DNA of 64,000 nucleotides, taken from contig JAABRT010000009.1 in NCBI GenBank assembly GCA_011390805.1, forward strand, positions 1-64,000, written 5' to 3'. Source of the DNA: Gemmatimonas sp. Lineage in GTDB: Bacteria > Gemmatimonadota > Gemmatimonadetes > Gemmatimonadales > Gemmatimonadaceae. The notes under the pieces were generated by a model that made no database searches, had not been told where the DNA came from, and saw only the letters and a list, made by a program, of their open reading frames with translations. Shown one piece after another: positions 9,518 to 44,600 of the stretch. Positions within the stretch are counted from its first letter, which is position 1. Every line of letters starts with the position of its first letter. Made by a program: the position numbers and the translations under genes.

Positions 9518-9591
9518 GCCCCCGTAGCTCAGTTGGATAGAGCAGCGGTTTCCTAAACCGTTGGTCGGAGGTTCGATTCCTCTCGGGGGCA
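9518..9591 (+). tRNA. tRNA-Arg (anticodon CCU)
   Basis: A full cloverleaf folds by eye: acceptor arms 9518-9524 and 9584-9590 (7 bp), D stem GCTC/GAGC, anticodon stem GCGGT/ACCGT with loop TTCCTAA, and T arm with loop TTCGATT. The anticodon CCT lies at 9552-9554, which reads AGG (Arg). The discriminator is A at 9591, and CCA is not encoded. It is a single gene between apt and the TPR protein. Confidence 0.97.
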
Positions 9592-9695
9592 CTTGGCTTT
9601 GCGCGACGGGTGACGTTTTCCCCTGGATTGAGTATCTTGTGTGCTTGCGTTCTTTTGCGCACACCGTTTAAACCCTGCTGCCCCGTAGTGCACCA

Positions 9696-10370
9696 ATGGC
9701 GAAGACTTCACGACCCGTAAACCCCTCGGCGCCACTGGCTGCCGGCTCTGATGATCCGCTTGAAAGCGCCACCCTGTGGTTGCAGGCCAACGGCAAGCTG
9801 GTCGGCATTGGCGTGGCCGTGGTCGCGGTCATCGGGCTCGGCATTTACGGTGTTCGTGCATCGGACGCCAAGAAGCAGGCCAATGCGTCAACGGCGCTCT
9901 ACGCCGCGCAGGGCGCGCTTTATCAGGGGCAGGCCGACTCCGCGCGGGTAGCACTTCAGGGCGTGATTGATCGTTACGGCAGCACAAGCGCGGGTGAGCA
10001 GGCGGTGCTGCTGCTGGCTCAGTCACACTTTGATGCCGGCGAGTTTGCCGAAGGAATCGCCATTCTTGAAGAGGCCCGGTCCGGCGCTTCGGCGTCATTT
10101 TCGGCCTCGATGGACGTGCTGCTTGCGGCCGGCTACGAGGGTCAGGCCAACTTCGAGAAGGCCGCCGAGTACTACGATTCTGCTGCCAAAGCGGCAGGAT
10201 CATCTGCCGAGCGTGATGCACATCGGTTGGCGCAGGCGCGCTCGCTTATGCGGGCCGGCAAGGATGCTGAGGCCAAGGTGCTGTTTGAAGAGCTGCGCTC
10301 CAAGCCCGGCTCGCCGTACGCTCAGGAAGCCGCTGTTCGGTTAGGTGAGCTCATGGCTTCGGGGCGATAA
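9696..10370 (+). CDS. Membrane-anchored TPR protein (YfgM-like)
   Basis: The 224-residue protein has a short cytosolic N-terminus, one transmembrane segment at about residues 34-51 ('LVGIGVAVVAVIGLGIYG') and then tetratricopeptide-like helical repeats to the end (units such as 'AVLLLAQSHFDAGEFAEGIAILEEA'). This matches the TPR_21/YfgM layout, in which the protein is anchored in the inner membrane and assists secretion partners on the periplasmic side; that role is transferred from the family. It is the last + strand gene before the strand switch and is followed by a strong terminator. Confidence 0.85.
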   Translation: MAKTSRPVNPSAPLAAGSDDPLESATLWLQANGKLVGIGVAVVAVIGLGIYGVRASDAKKQANASTALYAAQGALYQGQADSARVALQGVIDRYGSTSAGEQAVLLLAQSHFDAGEFAEGIAILEEARSGASASFSASMDVLLAAGYEGQANFEKAAEYYDSAAKAAGSSAERDAHRLAQARSLMRAGKDAEAKVLFEELRSKPGSPYAQEAAVRLGELMASGR

Positions 10371-10415
10371 GCGCAGGCTATACAGTCTGGAGTTCGCTCG
10401 TCATTCATGTAAATC

Positions 10416-10451
10416 AGGCTGGGTTCGCACATTAGCGAACTCAGCCTTTTT
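10416..10451 (+). terminator. Rho-independent terminator after the TPR gene
   Basis: The arms AGGCTGGGTTCGC (10416-10428) and GCGAACTCAGCCT (10435-10447) pair over 13 bp, including one G-U pair, around the 6-base loop ACATTA. The T run TTTTT follows at 10447-10451. It ends the + strand gene block. Confidence 0.93.
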
Positions 10452-10663
10452 GCTTGTCGGCTGGTCCTGGACGCCTGACTTCTGTCGACATCGGCAGGCA
10501 GCAGGAGCGGTTGGAATATTGGCCTGTGACGTAGCATACGTCGGTGAAAGCGCGTTGTTCAGGCAGGTGAGCGCCAGCGGGATGTTTGAGTCGGCAAAGG
10601 TGACAGCAGAGAGACACCAGCAGGTCAGTATACGTCTCTTTCGGTTCGGTGTCGGTCGAACAG

Positions 10664-10691
10664 TATGCCGATAATACATGTTATGTAAACC
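10664..10691 (+). other. dif: Probable XerCD dif site (chromosome dimer resolution)
   Basis: The 28 bp divide into a XerC-type arm TATGCCGATAA (10664-10674), a 6-bp centre TACATG and a XerD-type arm TTATGTAAACC (10681-10691). From memory, the XerD arm of Bacillus subtilis dif is TTATGTAAACT (10 of 11 identical) and that of E. coli is TTATGTTAAAT (8 of 11). The XerC arm is always less conserved, and 7 of 11 match E. coli here. The site is alone in the largest gene-free region, exactly where gene polarity reverses, as expected of a terminus. A XerC/D recombinase gene is at about 30.4 kb. Confidence 0.8.
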
Positions 10692-10698
10692 AAAGTAC

Positions 10699-10726
10699 GT
10701 GGATAACTGTGGACAACGTGGATAGC
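10699..10726 (+). repeat. Three direct repeats resembling DnaA boxes, beside the dif-like site
   Basis: The copies are GTGGATAAC (10699-10707), GTGGACAAC (10709-10717) and GTGGATAGC (10718-10726). They start 7 bp after the XerD arm. Read with the base before, they are one or two mismatches from the reverse complement of the DnaA box TTATCCACA. A fourth, inverted near-match TTATCAACA lies at 10769. They could bind DnaA or a terminus-associated protein; neither is shown. Confidence 0.6.
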
Positions 10727-10948
10727 CTCTGGTACTTGCATATTGGGTAGTGAGTCGTACTGGTATGATTATCAACAGGTTACGGCGTATCTCTCAAGTC
10801 ATTTCTGAAATGAGGCCTCACGTTCGTCCAGCGGGCCCAATCTCTCCACATTCCTGACCTGAGAAATGATGCCGTCTCAGCGCTCATCAAACGCCGTCAA
10901 ACCGCTGGTGCCGACGGCGACCGTGGCGGCCTGTGATCGAACTGTGGT

Positions 10949-11857
10949 CTATCCCAGAAGGCCTAGAGTGCCTTGGAACACGATGCGCCCTTCTCCGCGC
11001 AGTGACGGGTCGAAAACCCGACTTGTGGAAACGGCCGCCACTGAGACTCGGTCCCTCGCAGATTCGACGCCGCGAAACGACACCTCCACCTCTCGGCCCG
11101 AGCGCGTCACCAGGCGCACCGGCGCTTGGGCGAGTCCCCATTCAGTAAGCAGTATCGCCGCTGCAATAGCTCCGGTGCCGCACGCCAGCGTCTCTCCCTC
11201 CACGCCGCGCTCGTACGTGCGGTAGCTCCAACGACCGTCTGCGAGCGGCGCTATCCAGTTCACATTGGTTCCCGCGGGAGCGAAGCCGGCCGACTGCCGA
11301 ATTGACCGACCGCGCATTTCTACCGGCACATCGTCGAGCGCGTCGCAAACGATAACCACATGCGGTACGCCCGCCAGCGCAAAACCCACACGGGTCTCCC
11401 CGTGCTCAAGGTCAACCCGTGATTCATGCACTCGAACCTCGGTGACCGGAGCCAGGTCTATCTGTGGCTCGCCCGCCAGAACGCGCGCCTGCACCCGTCC
11501 CGCGTCGGTGTCCAGAACCACCGCCTCCTGCCGGGCCAAACCGTGAGTGACGGCGAATGTTGTGCTGCACAACGTTGCATTACCGCACAGCTCGCCTAGC
11601 GTCCCATCGCTGTTAAAGTACCGTAGCAGCAGCGGGCCGAAGTGTGGTGAAGGTTCGAGCAGAACTACACCGTCTGCGCCTATGCCGTTGTTTCTGTTGC
11701 AGATAGCCCGCACAACCTCAGGTGATTCTATAAGTGCACGCGAGACCGTACGTGCATCGAACACCACAAAGTCGTTGCCTGAGCCGGTCATCTTGGTGAA
11801 CGGCGTGCCACGCAGTGCGGCGGCTTGATCGGCGGTAATGGTGGCCGTGAGCTCCAT
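10949..11857 (-). CDS. dapF: Diaminopimelate epimerase
   Basis: DapF converts LL- to meso-diaminopimelate for lysine and peptidoglycan. The start is ATG 11857, sharing one base with the upstream stop (TGATG). The conserved beginning 'FTKMTGSGNDFVVFD' follows about 20 residues in. Both catalytic cysteines are present, in 'GELCGNATLC' and 'ETLACGTGAIA'. At 302 residues it is slightly longer than the usual 275-285, with an extra C-terminal stretch after the last beta strand. It is the last gene of the long envelope operon and ends facing the dif-like region. No clear terminator was found behind it. Confidence 0.95.
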   Translation of the reverse strand: MELTATITADQAAALRGTPFTKMTGSGNDFVVFDARTVSRALIESPEVVRAICNRNNGIGADGVVLLEPSPHFGPLLLRYFNSDGTLGELCGNATLCSTTFAVTHGLARQEAVVLDTDAGRVQARVLAGEPQIDLAPVTEVRVHESRVDLEHGETRVGFALAGVPHVVIVCDALDDVPVEMRGRSIRQSAGFAPAGTNVNWIAPLADGRWSYRTYERGVEGETLACGTGAIAAAILLTEWGLAQAPVRLVTRSGREVEVSFRGVESARDRVSVAAVSTSRVFDPSLRGEGRIVFQGTLGLLG

Positions 11858-12624
11858 CAGTAGCGCCCGGTCATTCCCCACCAGCGAAGCCTCCAAACCA
11901 TCCAAACGGCCTCGCGCACAATGCGCTTGGACATTTTTGACTCCCCCTCGGTGCGGTCATTGAACACGATGGGAATCTCGGCAATGCGGAAGCCCCGCTT
12001 CCAGGCGCGATAGCTCATCTCGATCTGAAACGCATATCCGTTGGACTTCACCTGGTCCAGCGGGATGGCTTCGAGCACCTTGCGGCGAAAACACTTGAAG
12101 CCTCCGGTGCCGTCTCCGAGATGCATGCCGGTAACCACGCGCGCGTAAATGTTGGCAGCGTACGACAGCAGCAAACGACTCATCGGCCAGTTCACCACCG
12201 TCACGCGTCCTTCCCGGTATCGCGAACCGAGCACCAGATCGGCGTCCTGGACCGCGTGGAGAAACTCGGTCAGGTGCGCCGGATCGTGCGAAAAGTCGGC
12301 GTCCATTTCAAAGATGTACGCGTAGTCGCGCTGCAACGCCCACTCGAATCCGGCCAGGTAGGCTCGTCCAAGTCCAGCCTTTCCCGGCCGGTGCAGCACA
12401 TGCACCCGCGAATCGGCAGCGGCCAGCTGATCGGCCAACTGCCCGGTGCCATCGGGTGAGTTGTCATCAACCACGAGTACCTCGAGTCGCGAATCTTCTG
12501 CCAGAATACGCGGCACAATGCGGGTAATGTTTTCGCGCTCGTTGTACGTGGGCACGATCACCAGCGCGCGTTCACCTTCCGGAACAGCAGCCTGGGGAGA
12601 CCAGGGCGTCTGTTTATCAGGCAT
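11857..12624 (-). CDS. Polyprenol-monophosphate glycosyltransferase (GT2, DPM1-like)
   Basis: The protein is similar to dolichyl-phosphate mannosyltransferase catalytic subunits: it has the GT2 start 'VIVPTYNERENI', the nucleotide and metal motifs 'LVVDDNSPDGTG' and 'EMDADFSHDP', and the typical 'GSRYREGG'-like element 'VLGSRYREGRVTVVNWP'. It lacks C-terminal membrane segments, as soluble DPM1-type enzymes do. It should move a sugar from a nucleotide donor to undecaprenyl phosphate on the cytosolic face. Start ATG 12624 gives 255 residues and overlaps the YfhO gene by 8 bp; an earlier in-frame start at 12648 is less likely. The adjacent YfhO protein could use the lipid-linked sugar. Confidence 0.9.
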   Translation of the reverse strand: MPDKQTPWSPQAAVPEGERALVIVPTYNERENITRIVPRILAEDSRLEVLVVDDNSPDGTGQLADQLAAADSRVHVLHRPGKAGLGRAYLAGFEWALQRDYAYIFEMDADFSHDPAHLTEFLHAVQDADLVLGSRYREGRVTVVNWPMSRLLLSYAANIYARVVTGMHLGDGTGGFKCFRRKVLEAIPLDQVKSNGYAFQIEMSYRAWKRGFRIAEIPIVFNDRTEGESKMSKRIVREAVWMVWRLRWWGMTGRY

Positions 12625-28810: not shown

Positions 28811-29747
28811 TGTGCTCTTTCCCTCTGTAGGACTGGTATGTCGAATCCGTGGTGGTGGGTGGCGTTTAATGCACTCGTGTTGTCGTTGCTGGCGCTCGAT
28901 CTTGGGGTCTTTCACCGCCATTCGCGCGAAGTCACCATGCGCGAGGCGCTGGGCTGGTGCACAGTCTGGATCTCTTTGGCGGTTTGTTTCGGATTGGGAC
29001 TCTGGGCCACGCTCGGGTCGCAATCGGCGCTCGAGTTCGCCGCCGGCTATCTGGTGGAACAGGCGCTTTCCGTCGACAACCTCTTTGTCTTCATCCTGAT
29101 ATTCGGCTTCTTCAAGGTGCCGCCGGCTCTGCAGCACCGGGTGCTGTTCTGGGGCATTCTCGGCGCACTGGTCATGCGCGGCATCATGATCGCCGTGGGG
29201 GCCGCGCTGCTCGCCCAGTTTCACTGGGTGATCTACATTTTTGGCGCCTTTCTGGTGTTTACCGGAGTAAAAATGGCGTTTTCAGCAGACAGCGCCATTG
29301 AGCCCGAATCCAATCCGGTTATCCGGCTGGTACGGCGGGTATTCCCGGTGACTACCAGATATCACGGGGAGAAGTTCTTTATCCGCGAGTCCATCAGACC
29401 GGGTGAAGCGGTGCGCCTGGTTGCCACGCCGCTGTTCGTGGTGCTGGCACTGATCGAGACCACCGACCTGGTGTTCGCGCTTGATTCGATTCCGGCAATC
29501 TTTGGCGTGACGCGCGATCCATTCATCGTGTACACGTCCAACGTGTTCGCTATTCTGGGGCTGCGATCACTCTACTTCGTATTGGCCGGTGTGATTGGCA
29601 AGTTTCACCTGCTCAAATACGGATTGTCGGCCGTGCTGGCCTTTGTGGGTGTGAAAATGCTGGTCTCGGAGCATTACCCGATTCCCATCGGCATCGCGCT
29701 GGGCGTAGTAGGCGGACTGCTGCTCACATCCGTTGTGGCGTCGCTGA

Positions 29748-30365
<618 letters not shown>

Positions 30366-30374
30366 GGCCGGCGA

Positions 30375-31298
30375 TTACGGGCGCGGGTGAAACGATCGGT
30401 GCACACTCCGAAGATACTCGCGGTCAATGTGTGTGTAGAGCTGGGTGGTGGCGATGTCGGCGTGGCCGAGCATCTCCTGCACCGCGCGCAAGTCGGCACC
30501 GCCTTCGAGCAGGTGCGTGGCAAAGGAGTGCCGCAACGTATGCGGCGAGACTGCCCGGTCAATGCCTGCCTTGTTCACGTACTTGCGCAAAATCTTCCAC
30601 GCGCCCATGCGTGTGAGCGGAGCGCCCCGTGCATTGAGAAAGAGAATGCCCTGCCCTTCGCCGCGCTCCAGCGTCGGGCGCAGCTCGCGCATGTACACAG
30701 CCAGCGCACCGATCGCCGAGCGACCAATGGGCACCAGCCGTTCCTTGCTCCCCTTGCCCATCACGCGCACCAGACTCTCTTCGAGCATCACATCACGGAT
30801 GGCCATGGTAATCCATTCGGACACGCGCAATCCGGCACCGTACGCCAGTTCGAGCATCGCGCGATCGCGAAACGCCAACGGCTCGTCAAGGTTGGGTGCA
30901 ACAAGCAGGCGCAGCACTTCTTCCACGGTGAGTACTTCAGGCAAGGTACGCCAGCGTGACGGGGTCTCCAGTCGTTCGGTGGGGTCGTGCGAAACGAGCC
31001 CTTCGCTCAGCAACACACGAAACCAGGTGCGCAGTGCCGATACGTTGCGTCTGATTGTTGCACCGGAGAGCCCAAGGTCCCGCAGCGTGTACACGTACTC
31101 CCGCAGCAACCGTGGCGTGAGCTGGGTAGCATCAGTAGCTCCCTGACTGCGGGCGAACGCAGCACAACGGATAACGTCACGTCCGTACGCCTCGATGGTG
31201 CGCGGTGACGATCCGTACTCAAGTACGAGCACGTCTTCAAAGCGACGCAAATGAAATCCCCGTTCGAGCACCTCCCGTTGTTCATCGGTGGGTATCAC
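30375..31298 (-). CDS. Tyrosine recombinase of the XerC/XerD family
   Basis: The protein has 307 residues from GTG 31298, placed 4 bp after the stop of the upstream kinase. The longer open frame would overlap that kinase and carries no family similarity. An N-terminal core-binding (SAM-like) domain holds '[15 protein letters not shown]'. The catalytic residues are visible: Arg in '[10 protein letters not shown]', Lys in '[10 protein letters not shown]', His and Arg in '[17 protein letters not shown]', His in 'LGHADIATT' and the nucleophile Tyr in 'QLYTHID'. The length and motifs suit XerC or XerD, which resolve chromosome dimers at dif with FtsK. A dif-like site is 19.7 kb away in this window. 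The partner recombinase is not seen. Confidence 0.93.
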
Positions 31299-31302
31299 AC
31301 GC

Positions 31303-33435
31303 TTATCCGGGATCGCGGGGGCCAACGGCTGCGTCAATGCTCTGGCGTACTTTCCGGGCGAGATCAGCCTGCGTAAACGGTTTGGGGAGAAATGCAGTGC
31401 GGTCCTGCTGCACCCCGCGGCGCAGCACTTCATCTTCAGGGTAGCCCGACATGAAGAGCACTTTGGTATCAGGGCGGCTGTGCTGCAGCGCTTCAGACAG
31501 CGCGCGACCACCCATTCCCGGCATCACGACGTCGGAGACCAGCAGATGAATGGTACCGTCGTGTGCTTCGGCCAGCTGTAGCGCTTCTTTACCACTGCGC
31601 GCTTCGAGCACATGATAGCCGTTCTCGCGCAGCATGCGAACCGCCAGCGCGCGCACCGATGGCTCGTCTTCCACCAACAGGATGGTTTCCGTGTTCCCAA
31701 CGCCTTCGGCCAGACGCGCCGAATCTTCAGTCGCCGCATCATCGGGCAACACAGCGGCGGGCAAATAGATGCTGAACTCGGTGCCGCGGTTCACTTCACT
31801 TTCCACGGTGATGTACCCCTCCAGCTGTTTCACCACGCCGTAGGCGAGCGACAGTCCGAGCCCGGTTCCCTGCCCGACTGACTTGGTAGTGAAAAACGGC
31901 TCGAAGACACGCGCCGTGGTCGCGGCATCCATCCCGACACCCGTATCCGAAATGGTCAGCACGATATACGGTCCGGTGCGCATTTCTCGGCGTGTGGCAT
32001 GATACAAATCCCCCACATCGTTGTGCGCCGCGCGATACGCCTCGTCCATATGCACCCGAGCGGTACGAATGGCCAATGTGCCGCCGTCCGGCATGGCATC
32101 ACGCGCGTTCAGCACGAGATTCATGAGGACTTGTTCCAGCTGCGCCGAATCGGCGGTTACGTGCACGGGCTCGGCGGCGGGATCAACGCGAAGGTCAATG
32201 ACCTCGCTGATCAACCGGCGCAACATGGTCGCAAAATCGACCACAAGTTGGTTCAACTCCACGACCTTCATGGTCATGACCTGGCGACGGCTGAACGCCA
32301 ACAGCTGACTGGTGAGGGTGGCCGCACGCGCACCAGCCTCCCCGATCTGCACGGCCGCTTCACGCAGCGGATCGTTGGCGGGCAGTTCCGCATGCAGTAC
32401 GTCGCTGTATCCGTTTATCACCGTGAGCAGATTATTGAAGTCATGGGCAATACCGCCTGCCAATCGCCCTACGACTTCCATACGTTGCGACTGCTGAAGC
32501 GCCCGCTCCATTTGGCGATGTTCCGAAACGTCTACTTGCACGCCCACAAACTGCGACAGCCGCCCCTCAGCGTCACGCACGGGGGTGATGGAAAGGTGCG
32601 TCCAGAATGATCTGCCGTCGCGTGTGTAGTTGAGAATCTCGACTGCACACGGGGAACCGGAGCGCACCGCTTCGCGCAGTGTGCGAACCGTGGCAGGGTC
32701 GGTATCCGGTCCCTGCATGAAGCGACAGTTCCGGCCAATCACGTCGGAGGCGCTATAGCCCGTCATTTTCTCAAATCCGGGATTTACATACACAATCGGA
32801 TTATCAGGCAGCAGTGGATTGGTAATCACAATGCCGTGCGTGACGGCCCGGATTGCGCGGTCACGCAGCAACAGCTCCGCTTCGGCCGAGTGACGGTCGG
32901 TGATGTCCACCAGACTGACACGCAACTCGGTGCCCGCCTCGTTGGCCGCACCTTCAAAATGTACGAAGACCGGTTCCTGCGTGGGTCCCGCTAACGCCAG
33001 ATCACAGTGAGCGCGACCAGCACTCGTGAATGCTGCCTCAAAACAATCGGCAAACGTCCGGCGGTGGGTTTGCGCCACATGTGCTGCAAAGCTGTCGCGC
33101 AGCAGATTGGCGCGATTGGTGCCGAGCAGTGAGGCCGCCTTCAGGTTGGAATGGGTGACCATGCCGTCGCGCGACAAGGTCACATAGCCGGTGGGCGCAA
33201 AGTCAAACAGTTCGGAGTAGCGCGCCCGTTCTACCTCAACCTCCGCCCGCGACGCCCGCAGCTCCTCGCACTGCATGGCCAGTTCGATCTCGTGCACCTG
33301 CAACTCATGAATGAGTCGATGCGCTTCGATGTTGGAGTTGGCACCATCATCTTTCAGCCGCTCAGCAAGCGCCTGTTCGGCGCGCTCACGTAGCGTTGGG
33401 GCTCGGCTTTGCGGAGTTCGATTGTCTGCCTTCAT
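31303..33435 (-). CDS. LOV-domain hybrid histidine kinase (putative blue-light sensor)
   Basis: Domain order in 710 residues: a coiled coil (about 10-70), PAS (about 72-180), LOV (about 204-305), HisKA (H331 in 'GGIAHDFNNLL'), HATPase_c (N443, 'SDTGVGMD' 496-503, 'GTGLGLSLAYG') and a C-terminal receiver (D590, phospho-acceptor D635, K685). The LOV core carries the flavin-adduct cysteine in 'GRNCRFMQG' (Cys237), N269 in 'ILNYTRDG' and Q300 in 'FVGVQVDVS', the pattern of blue-light-sensing flavoproteins. One usual flavin contact (Asn after FW) is Thr279. The start overlaps the CheB-CheR gene by 4 bp, so the two are coupled. Light-controlled phosphotransfer is the likely function. Confidence 0.93.
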   Translation of the reverse strand: MKADNRTPQSRAPTLRERAEQALAERLKDDGANSNIEAHRLIHELQVHEIELAMQCEELRASRAEVEVERARYSELFDFAPTGYVTLSRDGMVTHSNLKAASLLGTNRANLLRDSFAAHVAQTHRRTFADCFEAAFTSAGRAHCDLALAGPTQEPVFVHFEGAANEAGTELRVSLVDITDRHSAEAELLLRDRAIRAVTHGIVITNPLLPDNPIVYVNPGFEKMTGYSASDVIGRNCRFMQGPDTDPATVRTLREAVRSGSPCAVEILNYTRDGRSFWTHLSITPVRDAEGRLSQFVGVQVDVSEHRQMERALQQSQRMEVVGRLAGGIAHDFNNLLTVINGYSDVLHAELPANDPLREAAVQIGEAGARAATLTSQLLAFSRRQVMTMKVVELNQLVVDFATMLRRLISEVIDLRVDPAAEPVHVTADSAQLEQVLMNLVLNARDAMPDGGTLAIRTARVHMDEAYRAAHNDVGDLYHATRREMRTGPYIVLTISDTGVGMDAATTARVFEPFFTTKSVGQGTGLGLSLAYGVVKQLEGYITVESEVNRGTEFSIYLPAAVLPDDAATEDSARLAEGVGNTETILLVEDEPSVRALAVRMLRENGYHVLEARSGKEALQLAEAHDGTIHLLVSDVVMPGMGGRALSEALQHSRPDTKVLFMSGYPEDEVLRRGVQQDRTAFLPKPFTQADLARKVRQSIDAAVGPRDPG

Positions 33436-36296: not shown

Positions 36297-39200
36297 TCAT
36301 GGTTGGCTATGCCAGACACGCACGTCATGGCGCTGGGAATCGTCAAACAACACAATGCTGTCGCCCGCCTGCTCGGCGCCGTCCACCATAACTCTGGCTG
36401 TACCACGCGGACCGCCACGGGGATGGTGCACTGTCACATCGAAGTAACTGTTGCCGTAACGGTAGGCAATTTTGTACTCAGGCCAGGACGGCGGAGCACG
36501 AGGTGCGACGCGTAACGCATCGCCTTGCCGTTCAAGTCCCAGCACACCCTCCAGCCCTACGCGATACATCCAGCTCGCCGACCCGGTGTACCAGGTCCAT
36601 CCACCACGCCCCACCTGCCCCTCCGCCGTGTACACATCAGCGGCCACCACATAGGGCTCCACTTTGTACGTGGCTACTTCGCCTGCCGTACGACTGTGCA
36701 TGAGCGGATTGATCATCTGGAACAGGGCAAACGCCCGCTCACCCTCGCCGCGCATCGCAGTGGCCAGCACCGCCCACAGCGCAGCGTGCGTGTACTGCGC
36801 ACCATTCTCCCGCACGCCCGGCAGATAGCCCTTGATGTACCCGGGATCGTGCGGCGTGTGATTAAACGGCGGTGTAAGCAGCACGATTAACTGATCTTCC
36901 TCACGAATGAGATGCTCATTCAGTGAGTGCATTGCGGTATCCTGTCGCGATGCGTCGCCCGCACCTGATAACACGCTCCAGCTTTGCGCCAGTGAATCGA
37001 TCTGGCATTCAGCGTTCGCTGCCGATCCAAGCGCTGTGCCGTCGTCGAAGTACGCGCGACGATACCACGCGCCATCCCAACCATGTTGTTCAACCGCCTG
37101 CCTGTACGCCTCGGCTTGCTCCCGCAGCTCGCCGGCAACAGCGGCCTCGCCGCGCGCATCAACATGCCCGGCAAACTTCTGCAATGTGTCGATGAGGAAC
37201 CAGGCCAGCCAGACGCTCTCACCCCTGCCCTCAACACCCACACGATTCATTCCGTCGTTCCAGTCGCCGCCGCCAATGAGCGGCAGGCCATGCGCTCCCG
37301 TGGTGCACGCGCGACGCAGCGCCCGCAGGCAATGCTCGTAAACGCTGCCATGCTCATCGGTGACGAGCGGTAAGTCATACACCTCATGTTCGTCAGGCGC
37401 GAGCGGTCGCATGGAAAGAAACGGTACGTATTCGTCGAGAATCTGCGTGTCGCCTGTAGCAAGCACGTAGTGATCTACGACGTGCGGCAGCCACACCAGA
37501 TCATCAGAAAATCGTGTGCGAACGCCCTGCCCTGTATGCGGATGCCACCAATGCTGCACGTCGCCTTCAAGGAACTGCCGGGCCGCAGCGCGCAGAATAT
37601 GCGCACGCGCTATTGATGAGTCTGTATGCACGAACGCCATCACATCCTGCAGCTGATCGCGAAATCCGTACGCACCGCTTGATTGATACAGCGCCGAACG
37701 TCCCCACATGCGGCAGCTCAACGCCTGATACAACGACCAGCGATTGATCATCGCATTGAACGTGGGCTCCGGTGTAGTCACTTGCACTGCACTCAATCGT
37801 TCATCCCATGCGCGCACGCTGGCGCTCACTGCGGCCTGCGCATCTGCAACCTTTTGGTAGCGGCTCAGGCATTCCCTGGCCTCGGCTTCGGATCGCGCTG
37901 CACCCACCAGCGTGGCCACCTCACAGCTTTCACCGGGGGCCAGATCAATCACGCATCGCAACGCCGCGCATGGATCGATACCCGCACCGGTGATGGCGCT
38001 GAGTACCATGCCGGATACCAGCCCCGCCGGCTGCGACGCATTGCCATTGCGTCCGAGAAAAGTACGTCGGCTGGCTGTGTGTTCGGTCACCGGTTCCGAC
38101 ATCGCATGAAACGAGGTCCAGCCGGCGAAGTGTGCATCAAAGGTATTCTGCGCAAACAGCGCGCCACGTTCACGATCAAACCATGTGCGTACCTGATGCT
38201 GCGAATGCTCGCGCAGTGCGCCCAGCACCCATTCCACATAGGTCGTGACGGTAATGCGACGCGCCTTGTCCGTAGTATTGGTGAGTTTGAGCAACCCGAT
38301 TTTTGTGGCGGAGCCATCGGCCAGCCCCACCGTGTACTGTGTTTCAATACCGTGTCGGATGTGCGCGAACGTAGAGTGCCCCGCACCGTGCGTCACGGTG
38401 TATTGCGTGGCCGTGCGAATGGGCGCGGGCGTAGCGCACCACGTGTCACCAGTACTTTCCTCGTGCAGGTACACCACGTCGCTCACCGGATCGCTCACCG
38501 GATCGTTGTGCCACGGGGTGAGACGCAGGAAGTAGCTGTTTTCCGCCCAGGCGAAGCCGCCCCCACGTTCGGTAATCACAAACCCACCACAGGGATTGGC
38601 AATGACATTCGACCACGGTGCGGGGGGCAGCGTATCGTTGCGCACCTTGAGTTCGTAATCATTGTTGTCAAGGAGCGAACCAATACCATTCGCATACGTT
38701 GCCGTAATTGGTTCAACCACCCCCACAGCGCGTGGCGTGGCCCGCCGCTCAACACGCGCCGAGCGAAGGCGCGACGAGGGTGCGCGAAGCTCGGCCACCG
38801 AGGGTGCACTGGTGGCAATCGATGAGGTGAGAATGCGCCCCAGATCACGACCGTCGCACGACACATGCAGGCGTGCCGTGGTGCGCAACATGAGCTCGGC
38901 ATCGGCAATGAGCAGATCGCGCCGTCGCACAAAGACGCCGCCCGTGCGATCAAGCGTGCCGGCGTCATTCACCGCGTGGACGGCGGCGGCAATGCGATCG
39001 CCGAGATCCTGCAGATACGTGGGTGCATGCTCGTCGAGTACGACCAGATCAACGGTAAGACCACGACGCCGCCAGAAACGATGCGCCGCCAGCAGCGATC
39101 GCAGTGTGGTGAGTCCTTCGGCATTGCTGATGGTGGCCAACAGGATCGGCACATCCCCCGACACGCCAAAGCCCCAGAGCAGTGGTTGTGATCCGCGATT

Positions 39201-42200
39201 GCGGCGCATCTCCAGCTGCGGTGCACGCAGCGCGGGATGACCATACATCACATGACCAGCCAGCTCCTGAAACACCGCCGCATCAGCCGGCGTGATGCCA
39301 AGCTCTCGCAACTCCACCTGACTGGATGTCCAGGCGAGATCGAACGCGCGCTGCGCCGCGTGTGGATCACGATACCGGTCGGCCAGCGCAAAGGCCCGCT
39401 CCCGTGTGGCGGCAACCAACGTGGTGAAGGCAACCGAGGCCGACTGGCCTGCCTCCAGTCGCAGCCGCGTGCGCACGGCAAAGACAGGATCCAACACCGC
39501 GCCGGTGGTACCCGACAGCTCACCATCGTGCTCAAGCGCTATCGGATTGCGTGTGGACCTGCCACGACCAAGAAAGCGTGCGCGATCGGTTTCGCATGAC
39601 ACACCGCCTGAACGTTCCCTTCCCCCGTCTACCAGATGCACGAACCATTGTGTGGCTTCGTTGGCCGACCGGGGACGCCGTGTTGCAGTGATCGCGTTAC
39701 ACCAGCTGTGCCACGCCGTCTCCACAAAGAGATTGCCGAACGCGGGGTGGGCACGGTCGGCGTCGGCCGGCGCCATGACAATCTCCCCGTAGCTGGTGAG
39801 TTCAAACTCGCGGATACTCCGGCTGTTGTTTGTGAGCGTCACACGCCGTACCTCAGCCGAGTCTTCCGGTACCACCGCGATCTCGGTGCGCGTAGTGACG
39901 TCACCGTCAGTGCGCTCAAAGGTCACCTGTTCGGTGCCCAGCGAGGCACGGTATTGCCGCGCCGGTGCGCACACCGGTTGATGCGCCGTTGACCACACGT
40001 GTCCCGAGCCGATGTCCTTGACATAGCAGAACTGACCGGTGGCATCGCGCGTACCGTCTGCTTTCCAGCGATTCACCGCCAGCGATTCGTAGCGACTGTA
40101 GCCGGAGCCTGCGTTGGTCAACATCACCGTGTACGGTTGATGACCAAGAAAGGCCACATGCGGCGTTGGTGTGTCGGCGGTATCAAACTCGCGCACCACC
40201 GGCTGTTCGCTCTCGGTATCGGGCAACCCGTCGTCTGCCTGCGCACCGAGCGGTGATTGCAGCACCGCCTGGCGTGGAACACGCTCGTGCATCAACAGCT
40301 CGGCGGACCGCACAAGTGGATCGGCATGAAAGCGCCGCTGCCAGATATTGTCGGTGAGTTTGTTGGTGAAGGCCACCAGACTCATACCGATGTGATGCGC
40401 CATGTAGGCATCCACCATGGCAAAGCGGCTGCCCACATCGGGGCGCGTAAAGTCTATGGCATCGCGGAAGCCGTATTCACCCAGCACGCCTTCGTTTTCC
40501 AGACGGGTCAGGTTTTCCAGTGCTGCTTGTGGATCAACCATCGTGGCCAACGCCGACGCGTACGGCGCAATCACCAGCTCACGCCCCAGACCGCGTTTGA
40601 GCGCGAGGTCTGCCACGCCAAAGGAGCGGTACTGATACGTGGCGTGACGATCGCGCACATTGTACGCGCTTTCACTGATGCCCCACGGCACACCACGTGT
40701 GGCGCCATCGGCCACGTGCCGGCTCACCACACCGGTGTAGGCCTGCGCCAGAATCGTTGCCGGTGGTGATTGCATGACCAACAGCGGCATGAGGTACTCG
40801 AACATGCTGCCGCTCCACGAGACCAGCGCCGGAGCACCTGATGAGTAGGTGAGGGTGCGGCCAAGCCGGAACCAGTGGTCGGCGGGTACATCGTTCTTGG
40901 CGATGGCCAGAAAGCTGGCCAACCGCGCTTCCGACGCGAGCAGATCATACAGCGAGCTGTCAAGCGTGTTGGTGTGATGCTGCAAGCCAATGGACAGCAG
41001 CTCGCGCTTTGCATCGAAGAGCACACCGAAGTCCATTGACATCGCATCCTGATACGCCCAGTCGGCCAGGGCCACAAGCCGCGCACGTAACGCTTGGGCA
41101 GTATCGGGCGCAGTCGCAAAGGCGAGGCACGCCTGGCGCAGTGCGATCAGGTGGCCGGCCAGGTTTCCGCTGTCAACGGTGGAGAGATAGGCGGGCTCGA
41201 GAACTGACAGATCGTGCAGATCATACCAGTTGAAGTAATGTCCGTGCGAGCGCGGCAGCTGTTGCATTGTCCGGGCCGTTCGCTCAAGCCGTTCGATCAT
41301 ATCGGTGAGCGTGATCAGCTCCAGATCATGCGCGCTGACCGTTGCCAGCAGTTGCAAACCGATATTTGTGGGCGACGTGCGCATGGCAACCACGGGCTCA
41401 GGCGTGCCTTGGAAGTTGTCGGGCGCCAGCCACTTGGTATCGGCGGTGACAAAGGTGTCGAAAAAGTGCCAGTGCAGCTGTGCGTAGCGAAGCGTTTGGC
41501 TGATCTCCGCGCTGGAGAGCTGATGGGGCGTGGCCAGGTTCGGTGTGCTGAGTGCATGTGCGACCCACGGCGAAAGCAGCCAGAGCAACAGTACCGGCAC
41601 CACCCAAATCGTGAGCATCAGTGGAGACGGGTCGAGCGGATCACCGGTCAGTGTGCCGGCGTGCAGTGCAATGGCCAGCCCCAGCGCGAGCGTGCCCGCA
41701 GCCACCGGCCACATGGCGCGCCACGTACCAAACGGCGAGGCCGTTGTGCTGCGTTCACTCTGCAACGCTGTCTGCCACTCAAGCATGTGCCGGTGTGTGA
41801 CGTTCAGTCGCCACACGGCGCGCACAATGGCATCGACTGACACCCAGGCCTGGTGCGGCAGGAACGTGACCGCCAGCAAAACCTGCTTGGCACTGGTTCG
41901 CATATCCGCGCCAACAGCGCTGTAATACGCACGCCACGACCGCGTGAGCGGCGGCCGCAGCAACGCGATAAGAATGGTGACGATCCACGGGGCCGCGATG
42001 ATTCCCAGCGCAAGCAGCGTCCAACGGGCCATGGATACCGGCAGCAGCAACCAGCCAACTACAAGAAACACAAGTTGCGACAGCTCAACCGTGCTGCGAC
42101 GCAAGTTGTCGATAATCTTCCACCGCGAGAGCAGCGCCAGTCGATTGCGCTCGGCGCCGCCAGGTCCGGGTACCAGACCCGTTAACCACGGTAACAGCTG

Positions 42201-44600
42201 CCAGTCGCCGCGAATCCAGCGATGCTTGCGGCGGGAAAAGGTCAGATACCGTGTCGGATAGTCATCGTACACAATGACATCGGTGGCCAGTCCGGCACGG
42301 GCGTAGTTGCCTTCAATCAGATCGTGTGACAGCAGCGTGTTTTCCGGAAACCGGCCATGCGTTGCGCGCTCAAACGCGGCCACATCATAAATGCCTTTTC
42401 CGGTGAAGCTGCCTTCTCCAAAGAGATCCTGATACACATCCGACACCGCCGTGGTGTACGGATCCACCCCCGGATGCCCTGAATAGATTGACGCAAACGC
42501 ACTCAGGTGCGCACTCGGCAGCGACACTCCGACCCGCGGCTGCAGTATGCCGTGACCACGCACTACGCGCCCGAGATGCGGGTCGTATACGGCGCGATTG
42601 AGCGGATGTGCAATGGCACCAATCAGCGCCGGTGCGGCATCGGGGGGAAGCATCGTGTCAGCGTCGAGCGTAATGACGTACTGCACAGTGCGAAGCACGT
42701 TGGCCTCTCCAATGAGTTGCGAGAACCCATCGCGTTCGCCGCTGAGCACAAACCGGTTGAACTCTCCGAGCTTGCCACGCTTGCGCTCCCAACCCATGAA
42801 CACACCTTCGGCCGCATTCCAGCGACGTGGGCGATGAAACAGAAAAAACGCATCACCTGATTCCGGCGCATATCGTGCGTTGAGTGCGTTGACTCCCTCA
42901 ACGGCAGCGGAGACAATGGCGTTGTCCGTGCTCAGCGTTTCCTGATCTGCATCGGTGAAATCGCTGAGCAGCGCGAAGTGCAGATTGGGCTCACGGTTGG
43001 CAAGAAACTGTACTTCAAGATTGTTGAGCGCGTCGTGCACCGCCTGCACGTCGGGAAAGAGTGTCGGCGTGACCACCGCCGTGCGATACTCGGGGGGCAC
43101 GCCGTGCGTGAGCAGATCGAGTTTGGGCAATGGTCTGGGCGGCATGAGCGCAGCCACCAGTTTGTTTACAACGGTGATAGCCAGCTCCGTGGCCGGAATC
43201 GCGCCAAGCAGGAGCATGAGCCACCAGGAGTCAGGGCCCGGGGTACCGCTCAGCCAGAGCAGCGCCGCGAGTGCACCGGCGAGCAGCGCGGCAACGCTGC
43301 AGAGATACACGATGCTGGGATGACAGCGAACCCAGCGAAGCACACGCTCGGCGACGGGCGGCGTATATCCGGTCGCCATCTCCAACTGCTCCAGTCCTTC
43401 GTCAATCAGGTAGTAACCAACGTGACTGCGTCGGTGGTCAACGCCGTGATGCGGCAGTGCGGAACGTGCGAGCTCAACCGCTTGCTGTGCCACCGCCTGT
43501 TCAACTCGCTTTGTGCGCTTGGCGATGCGTTCAATGACATGCCGATACGCGTCGCGTGTCTCAAAGGTCATGCGCGCGTAGTGTCCGGGCGGATCTTCAC
43601 GCAGCACCGCGTCAACTCGACTCTGCTCTTCGACCAGTGTTCGCCAGTCTATGCGTTCAATCGCGCGCAGACTCGTGATACTGTTGGCCATGACTACCTG
43701 CGTCAGGGCCAGGCGCTGCGTTGCGCGTGCCGTGGCTTCTTCCGCGCTCAGCGCCTCCTCGGCGATCCAGTGCTGCAAGCGCACAACCGCCGGCAGTGTT
43801 CCGCCCTCAGCGCGCAACTGTTGCAGAAACCGTGCGACAAACGTGTCAGTGAGCGCCTGCGCATCACGCGTGAAGTGCGCCAACTCCGTTTCCAGCGCGA
43901 GGCCACCGGTTTCGGCCGCTGTTGCCAGTCGGGTGGCCGCGAGGTCTGCGCGTTCGATTTCTTCGAGCCGTTGCGCAGTACGCAGTCCCATGCGTCGCAC
44001 GTTTTCAATAAGTCCAAGGCGCAGCATTGCCGGAATGGCCCAAAGCTCACCGAGTGTCAGATCGGCAACGTCCTGATAGGCCGACAAGAAGCCGCTCACG
44101 TTCTCGTTTGCGACGCGACCTTCGCTATGCGAGATGAGTGTGATTGCCACTTCGTACACGCGCGGATAGCCCACCAGCGGTCCGGCGGCAAGCGTTGGCA
44201 GTTCGCGATAATAATCACGCGGCAGACTCTCGCGCACTTCGTGCATGTGCTCGCGCAAAACGTGATAGTTGTCCAGCAGCCAATCACCCGCCGGTCCAAC
44301 GTCGGCGCGCAATTCGCTATGCGCATTCAGTTGTGTGTACACACGCGCCAGTATCCGTGATGTCTCTTCCAGCCGCGCCAGCAGCGGAGTACGACTGCGC
44401 TCGGCCTTGGCGGCAACTTCCTGCGAGGCCGCCAACTCCCGGGCGCGCTCGCTCAAATGCTCAGCGCCGAAGAGCTCGCCGCGAATAGGACCGGTGAGCA
44501 CATCATCACGCGCTGTGCTGGTCGGGCGCGAGATGCGTGTTCGGAGTTTCCGGATGGCTCGGGACAGCGGGATAAGCGCACTCCTTGAAGTGGACCGCAA
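36297..44600 (-). CDS. ndvB: Cyclic beta-glucan synthase (NdvB/ChvB type)
   Basis: This giant membrane enzyme (2767 residues) makes and cyclises a beta-glucan from UDP-glucose. N-terminal helices span 1-420 and membrane segments lie near 425-455, 855-885 and 985-1020. A GT84 glycosyltransferase core holds 'TLDADTMLPPDA' (about 645) and 'HRWIRGDWQLLPWL' (about 795). A glycoamylase-like domain contains 'YMAHHIGMSLVAF' (about 1400). Two supersandwich regions and a C-terminal GH94-type phosphorylase domain follow, with the Asp motif 'GGGDWNDGMNR' (about 2445). The product is a periplasmic osmoregulatory glucan in rhizobia; linkage here is unknown. The start is uncertain: TTG 44600 is the first codon available, and GTG codons occur about 34 residues on. 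Confidence 0.93.
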   Translation of the reverse strand: MRSTSRSALIPLSRAIRKLRTRISRPTSTARDDVLTGPIRGELFGAEHLSERARELAASQEVAAKAERSRTPLLARLEETSRILARVYTQLNAHSELRADVGPAGDWLLDNYHVLREHMHEVRESLPRDYYRELPTLAAGPLVGYPRVYEVAITLISHSEGRVANENVSGFLSAYQDVADLTLGELWAIPAMLRLGLIENVRRMGLRTAQRLEEIERADLAATRLATAAETGGLALETELAHFTRDAQALTDTFVARFLQQLRAEGGTLPAVVRLQHWIAEEALSAEEATARATQRLALTQVVMANSITSLRAIERIDWRTLVEEQSRVDAVLREDPPGHYARMTFETRDAYRHVIERIAKRTKRVEQAVAQQAVELARSALPHHGVDHRRSHVGYYLIDEGLEQLEMATGYTPPVAERVLRWVRCHPSIVYLCSVAALLAGALAALLWLSGTPGPDSWWLMLLLGAIPATELAITVVNKLVAALMPPRPLPKLDLLTHGVPPEYRTAVVTPTLFPDVQAVHDALNNLEVQFLANREPNLHFALLSDFTDADQETLSTDNAIVSAAVEGVNALNARYAPESGDAFFLFHRPRRWNAAEGVFMGWERKRGKLGEFNRFVLSGERDGFSQLIGEANVLRTVQYVITLDADTMLPPDAAPALIGAIAHPLNRAVYDPHLGRVVRGHGILQPRVGVSLPSAHLSAFASIYSGHPGVDPYTTAVSDVYQDLFGEGSFTGKGIYDVAAFERATHGRFPENTLLSHDLIEGNYARAGLATDVIVYDDYPTRYLTFSRRKHRWIRGDWQLLPWLTGLVPGPGGAERNRLALLSRWKIIDNLRRSTVELSQLVFLVVGWLLLPVSMARWTLLALGIIAAPWIVTILIALLRPPLTRSWRAYYSAVGADMRTSAKQVLLAVTFLPHQAWVSVDAIVRAVWRLNVTHRHMLEWQTALQSERSTTASPFGTWRAMWPVAAGTLALGLAIALHAGTLTGDPLDPSPLMLTIWVVPVLLLWLLSPWVAHALSTPNLATPHQLSSAEISQTLRYAQLHWHFFDTFVTADTKWLAPDNFQGTPEPVVAMRTSPTNIGLQLLATVSAHDLELITLTDMIERLERTARTMQQLPRSHGHYFNWYDLHDLSVLEPAYLSTVDSGNLAGHLIALRQACLAFATAPDTAQALRARLVALADWAYQDAMSMDFGVLFDAKRELLSIGLQHHTNTLDSSLYDLLASEARLASFLAIAKNDVPADHWFRLGRTLTYSSGAPALVSWSGSMFEYLMPLLVMQSPPATILAQAYTGVVSRHVADGATRGVPWGISESAYNVRDRHATYQYRSFGVADLALKRGLGRELVIAPYASALATMVDPQAALENLTRLENEGVLGEYGFRDAIDFTRPDVGSRFAMVDAYMAHHIGMSLVAFTNKLTDNIWQRRFHADPLVRSAELLMHERVPRQAVLQSPLGAQADDGLPDTESEQPVVREFDTADTPTPHVAFLGHQPYTVMLTNAGSGYSRYESLAVNRWKADGTRDATGQFCYVKDIGSGHVWSTAHQPVCAPARQYRASLGTEQVTFERTDGDVTTRTEIAVVPEDSAEVRRVTLTNNSRSIREFELTSYGEIVMAPADADRAHPAFGNLFVETAWHSWCNAITATRRPRSANEATQWFVHLVDGGRERSGGVSCETDRARFLGRGRSTRNPIALEHDGELSGTTGAVLDPVFAVRTRLRLEAGQSASVAFTTLVAATRERAFALADRYRDPHAAQRAFDLAWTSSQVELRELGITPADAAVFQELAGHVMYGHPALRAPQLEMRRNRGSQPLLWGFGVSGDVPILLATISNAEGLTTLRSLLAAHRFWRRRGLTVDLVVLDEHAPTYLQDLGDRIAAAVHAVNDAGTLDRTGGVFVRRRDLLIADAELMLRTTARLHVSCDGRDLGRILTSSIATSAPSVAELRAPSSRLRSARVERRATPRAVGVVEPITATYANGIGSLLDNNDYELKVRNDTLPPAPWSNVIANPCGGFVITERGGGFAWAENSYFLRLTPWHNDPVSDPVSDVVYLHEESTGDTWCATPAPIRTATQYTVTHGAGHSTFAHIRHGIETQYTVGLADGSATKIGLLKLTNTTDKARRITVTTYVEWVLGALREHSQHQVRTWFDRERGALFAQNTFDAHFAGWTSFHAMSEPVTEHTASRRTFLGRNGNASQPAGLVSGMVLSAITGAGIDPCAALRCVIDLAPGESCEVATLVGAARSEAEARECLSRYQKVADAQAAVSASVRAWDERLSAVQVTTPEPTFNAMINRWSLYQALSCRMWGRSALYQSSGAYGFRDQLQDVMAFVHTDSSIARAHILRAAARQFLEGDVQHWWHPHTGQGVRTRFSDDLVWLPHVVDHYVLATGDTQILDEYVPFLSMRPLAPDEHEVYDLPLVTDEHGSVYEHCLRALRRACTTGAHGLPLIGGGDWNDGMNRVGVEGRGESVWLAWFLIDTLQKFAGHVDARGEAAVAGELREQAEAYRQAVEQHGWDGAWYRRAYFDDGTALGSAANAECQIDSLAQSWSVLSGAGDASRQDTAMHSLNEHLIREEDQLIVLLTPPFNHTPHDPGYIKGYLPGVRENGAQYTHAALWAVLATAMRGEGERAFALFQMINPLMHSRTAGEVATYKVEPYVVAADVYTAEGQVGRGGWTWYTGSASWMYRVGLEGVLGLERQGDALRVAPRAPPSWPEYKIAYRYGNSYFDVTVHHPRGGPRGTARVMVDGAEQAGDSIVLFDDSQRHDVRVWHSQP

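Follow-up and report, generated by a model that had tools for sequence, protein, structure and literature searches.

The 28-mer at positions 10664-10691 of the window (the whole 64,000-nucleotide stretch analysed here, from a contig of Gemmatimonas sp.) is, judging from its sequence and surroundings, confirmed as dif, the site at which a Gemmatimonadaceae bacterium resolves its chromosome dimers, and just outside its XerD arm it carries an extra module of outward-facing boxes which is most likely bound by DnaA. To this explanation as a whole we assign a probability of roughly two in three. It is built on the dif site, its position, the polarity of KOPS around it, the conserved box with its spacing, and the likeness of this box to the one upstream of dnaA. 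dif is a widely conserved bacterial site, usually regarded as 28 bp and no more, with FtsK as its activator; a DnaA-like box fixed to the base pair beside it across families suggests a direct connection, open to testing, between the factor that initiates replication and the step that closes the chromosome cycle.

The initial annotation had placed dif at exactly these coordinates, and the site indeed stands out there: a profile of 71 family sites, with its own genus excluded, scores it at 40.5 bits, and the runner-up in the 74-kb contig reaches only 0.6, leaving no better candidate elsewhere in that contig. The format is that of dif, with 28 bp divided into two 11-bp arms and a 6-bp centre and with the ATAA/TTAT inner palindrome. 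The XerD arm, described earlier as nearly identical to that of Bacillus subtilis, agrees with B. subtilis dif (ACTTCCTAGAATATATATTATGTAAACT) in 10 of 11 positions; identity over the whole site is 20/28 to this seed, and 20 and 18 of 28 to the F. alni and E. coli seeds, respectively, all quoted by Kono et al. 2011 (PMC3025954). With up to three mismatches allowed, the 19-bp dif core has no further match within the window and none in 100 shuffles. Because the search pattern used to gather the family sites prescribes parts of the 28-mer, conservation within it is inflated; the flank lies outside this pattern.

The copy number is that expected of dif: the 28-mer occurs once in its own 3.96-Mb, 170-contig assembly and once in each of four congeners, and 106 of the 179 family genomes have a dif match, almost all of them in one copy. 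Extra copies in family genomes are mostly found on short contigs or at contig ends. In many draft genomes (G075, G097, G120, G122, G153, G157, G178, G179, and others), dif lies within a few hundred bases of a contig end, and some of them have another copy on a short contig, perhaps because elements integrate at dif or because the assemblies mix strains. Integration of elements at dif is known, and the 28-mer could itself be read as the attachment site of such an element rather than as the chromosomal dif, in line with the contigs of several relatives that end a few hundred bases away from it. We consider this extremely improbable: there is no phage cargo among the annotated neighbour genes, the housekeeping neighbours (a TPR-repeat protein gene and dapF) are kept in a synteny that contradicts this reading in over 80 relatives, and the single copy, the skew, and KOPS all fit a chromosomal dif.

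Table 1. Features of the dif locus and its neighbourhood in the window
Feature	Position	Strand	Remarks
dif 28-mer TATGCCGATAATACATGTTATGTAAACC	10664-10691	+	read at exact coordinates
dif XerC arm TATGCCGATAA	10664..10674	+	position 5 is C in 74/75 non-redundant family sites; ATAA at positions 8-11 was fixed in the search pattern used to collect sites
dif 6-bp centre TACATG	10675..10680	+	differs between genera, as expected for dif
dif XerD arm TTATGTAAACC	10681..10691	+	10/11 identical to the B. subtilis XerD arm
Accessory box 1 GTGGATAAC (other strand GTTATCCAC)	10699..10707	+	starts at +8 after dif; GTGG at +7/+8 in 54/75 family sites
Accessory box 2 TGTGGACAA (other strand TTGTCCACA, DnaA-box-like)	10708..10716	+	GTGG start offset by exactly 10 bp from the GTGG start in box 1
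Third, weaker repeat GTGGATAG	10718..10725	+	not kept in congeners
TPR-repeat protein gene, left neighbour	9696..10370	+	points at dif; PF09976 and others
dapF (diaminopimelate epimerase), right neighbour	10949..11905	-	points at dif; PF01678
xerD, tyrosine recombinase with dif as its expected target	30375..31511	-	TIGR02225 337.8 bits (curated cut-off 329.6); PF00589, PF02899

The surroundings of the site support the replication terminus proposed in the initial annotation, together with both observations on gene order that it had made. According to the ORF list, dif lies in the largest gene-free region of the window (10371-10948, 578 bp), and gene polarity switches around it, since all CDS on its left, along with tRNA-Arg (9518-9592), are on the + strand, and the genes on its right are almost all on the - strand, one exception being the TerC-family gene at 28838-29815 (+). 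Both neighbours keep their place and direction in the relatives where they were found: the TPR gene is left of dif and on + in 82/82, and dapF is right of dif and on - in 103/103. Farther to the right, the window holds a 2767-aa open frame (36297-44600, - strand) with glycosyl hydrolase 94 and glucoamylase-type domains, resembling a very large cyclic-glucan-synthase-like protein.

The GC skew, by which the position was to be checked, points to the same place: in the window's contig it is +0.053 over the 10.7 kb left of dif and -0.042 over the 63.7 kb right of it, and the cumulative maximum of the contig falls at 10785, 94 bp from dif. The sampled skew of the complete relative G026 (4,636,964 bp) agrees with this, being positive in nearly all samples before dif (1,930,300) and mostly negative after it. 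The expected location opposite oriC was measured on three single-contig relatives, the genome under study being split into 170 contigs: in G026, with dnaA at 449, dif lies about 42% of the way round, and in G095 and G096 the distance from dnaA to dif is ~44% and ~45% of the chromosome. An oriC reading of the region was rejected, as dnaA is on another contig (C93) and both genes and skew converge here.

Further support for the terminus comes from the elements of the resolution machinery. KOPS GGGNAGGG is directed towards dif 15:1 in the window's contig and nearly always at the loci of eight relatives; the E. coli-type KOPS GGGCAGGG is directed so 60:2 over 870 kb of G026. FtsK with a gamma domain is present, and xerD lies 20 kb from dif in the window and ~21 to 24 kb from it in G026 and in G036, a member of a sister family. 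A second full-length Xer was found in G003, G026, and G036, and in the fragmented G000 there is only a short piece of a second one (contig C8).

The coordinates of the 28-mer proved exact, although the conserved locus does not end at 10691, since a second block continues to about 10717. When the family sites are aligned on the 28-mer, this block appears at +7 to +26 after dif, on the XerD side only, with column conservation far above the background (for example, 1.69 bits at +20 against a background mean of 0.055 and maximum of 0.33). It consists of GTGG(A/G)NAA repeats with starts exactly 10 bp apart (+7/+17 or +8/+18); the GTGG of box 2 stands at +17/+18 in 61/75 family sites and at +17 in 18/18 non-redundant sites of the sister families. 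In nine of ten genomes, dif is the only place with the exact tandem GTGGRNAACTGTGGRNAA, which is present there in one copy. The block does not represent the end of dapF, which lies at a variable distance from dif; a further block in f2 (~+29 to +48), considered as another site, is probably the dapF end, since dapF ends about there in this family. An isolated TTATCAACA, a weak DnaA-box-like 9-mer, occurs at 10769-10777 (+), 77 bp right of dif.

To describe the distribution of the box, we counted outward copies of TGTGGRNA no more than 45 bp away from dif, using 13,198 windows as controls. On the right of dif, the box is found in 67/79 sites of f1, 42/48 of f2 (all at +16), and 5/5 of f3, against 41/13,198 control windows (0.3%); the counts for f4 and f6 are 2/4 and 1/2. 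Its position in f1, f2, and f3 is nearly always +16/+17, and in these families TGTGGRNA is almost never inward or on the left of dif. In the sister family f2, the first repeat decays, and the second one, typically TGTGGACAAG or TGTGGAGAAG, is kept at exactly +16. A mirrored arrangement occurs in some genera of f5: among its sites outside the genus g81, 6/12 have an outward box to the left of dif, mostly as TTTTCCACA, at 10-12 bp from the XerC arm. This form suggests that adjacency to dif and outward orientation are more important than contact with XerD; if the boxes are indeed DnaA sites, the change of side with polarity kept would mean that their function depends on the dif-adjacent, outward-facing place and not on contact with XerD alone. 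In f7, f8, f10, and the genus g81 of f5, dif is present and no TGTGGRNA box was found, which means that the box is not required for dif in general.

The fixed direction of the boxes at the place where FtsK meets XerD could indicate that they are FtsK-loading or KOPS-type sequences. We regard this as very improbable, and octamer counts largely refute it: the polarised octamer of this family is GGGCAGGG, the E. coli-type KOPS, with the 60:2 bias given above, while GTGGATAA is rare and GTGGGAAA has no consistent polarity.

The boxes were also compared with the region upstream of dnaA. Read on the other strand, the dif boxes are TTNTCCACA or TTTCCCACA, with any base tolerated at position 3. In 31/34 genomes, the region upstream of dnaA contains a match to a profile derived solely from the dif boxes, in the form TTATCCACA, TTTTCCACA or, in one case, TTGTCCACA, whereas 790 kb of background gives 5 hits. 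This upstream box usually lies within TTGACTT(A/T)TCCACA, as expected for DnaA autoregulation. Since the same 9-mer recurs upstream of dnaA in 31/34 genomes, the dif box is most likely a DnaA box, and we consider DnaA the probable ligand of the accessory boxes. The motif is thus shared by the two places with a caveat for position 3, at which the boxes upstream of dnaA, unlike those at dif, nearly always have A or T; the difference possibly means that the two are read with unequal affinity or by distinct proteins. At 10699-10716 there is no match to the strict E. coli consensus TTWTNCACA, from which TTGTCCACA deviates at position 3. In the dnaA-dnaN intergenic region, a usual oriC, exact dif-type boxes are few (2 in 8.5 kb).

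The different use of base 3 at dif and at dnaA is also what would be expected if the boxes, being real and conserved, were bound by a protein other than DnaA, such as a Xer accessory factor or a nucleoid or terminus-organising protein. Their fixed spacing and one-sidedness would suit a dedicated Xer accessory factor. We nevertheless find a non-DnaA binder rather unlikely, because the 9-mer found upstream of dnaA in 31 of the 34 genomes occurs there at more than 100 times the background density, and because the mirrored left-side boxes mostly have the canonical form TTTTCCACA.

Proteins with two DnaA-type ATPase domains occur in most of the Gemmatimonadales genomes searched; an example is the 624-aa frame G026:C1:1693244-1694866 (L106), which has no hit to the DnaA DNA-binding domain and adjoins a DUF4388/TPR protein. 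Such a double-ATPase protein is not needed for the boxes: the 98-100% complete genomes G019, G023, and G046 have a single DnaA match, and a box is retained at dif in G019 and G023.

By homology, XerC and XerD would bind the two arms of dif, and FtsK, steered by KOPS, would reach the site at septation and switch on XerD, the recombinase activated by FtsK, so that dimers are resolved. In this lineage, the XerD arm is flanked on its outer side by the extra module of one or two outward 9-bp boxes with a 10-bp pitch, equal to one helical turn; DnaA most likely binds them, possibly in the form of a short oligomer along a single face of the helix. A DnaA pair would be placed some one and a half turns beyond the XerD arm, at the point where XerD is met by FtsK coming from the right, and this pair could hold FtsK off until DnaA leaves or changes its nucleotide state, or could help to assemble the synapse. 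Among the conceivable roles, the likeliest is that of a one-sided accessory factor beside the face on which XerD and FtsK touch, which would couple Xer recombination, or else the state of the locus replicated last, to the DnaA cycle. Any regulatory role of the boxes is largely conjecture, and we would rather doubt than expect it; as a tentative proposal for Gemmatimonadales and some relatives, for which we see somewhat less than even chances, DnaA may bind a fixed site beside dif and join in or gate dimer resolution or termination. If this is true, a single protein, DnaA, would be at work both at the start and at the end of the replication cycle.

DnaA could also be bound at the terminus for titration or reset only, as at datA or DARS, with no part in recombination. 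The datA, DARS1, and DARS2 loci are not at dif and include sites of other factors. Like the present element, they are compact groups of DnaA-type boxes outside oriC, and clusters of this kind are known regulators in E. coli (PMC4585315); here, unlike in datA or DARS, one or two boxes stand at a fixed distance from a recombination site. Titration or reset would need neither base-pair-exact spacing from the dif arm nor outward polarity, yet both are kept across families, and we think a role confined to it improbable.

In comparison with the dif/XerCD-FtsK systems of E. coli and B. subtilis, the 28-bp two-arm single-copy site, the skew switch, the polarity of KOPS GGGNAGGG, and the genes for XerD and FtsK-gamma are the same, and the difference consists in the conserved box module by the XerD arm, of which the papers searched give no description for dif. 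The plasmid Xer sites cer and psi are similar in combining a Xer core with conserved one-sided sites for accessory proteins. At cer and psi these are ArgR/PepA or ArcA, and a much longer stretch is involved; the box described here is instead DnaA-box-like and belongs to a chromosomal site.

The initial annotation saw here a concrete dif sequence for a little-studied phylum, which is new only in part: using a Firmicutes profile, Kono et al. 2011 (PMC3025954) predicted dif in the single Gemmatimonadetes genome then at hand. Given this prediction of the same kind of site in the same phylum, dif in Gemmatimonadota is in itself ordinary; that study covers one genome, and its main text mentions neither the flank nor DnaA. 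In our search of the open-access literature for DnaA boxes together with dif, none of the titles and abstracts described a DnaA element adjacent to dif, and a position-fixed DnaA-like element beside dif has apparently been undescribed so far. dif sequences are now at hand across the phylum, together with a clear prediction for a culturable species.

A scan for dif combined with GTGGATAA in a collection of 84,980 species gave 111 stretches, and Gemmatimonadota is the largest named group among the 80 matches listed. The listed matches also include a Peregrinibacteria/Peribacteraceae group and single sites in a WOR-3 genome, Larsenimonas, an alphaproteobacterium, and other bacteria; some of the matches outside Gemmatimonadota must be due to chance. 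The Peregrinibacteria/Patescibacteria sites L155, L160, L162, L221, L223, and L230 (e.g., CTTAACATAATGCATTTTATGTTAA) have GTGGATAA boxes nearby, L221 on both sides, and may possibly represent dif with DnaA boxes in another phylum.
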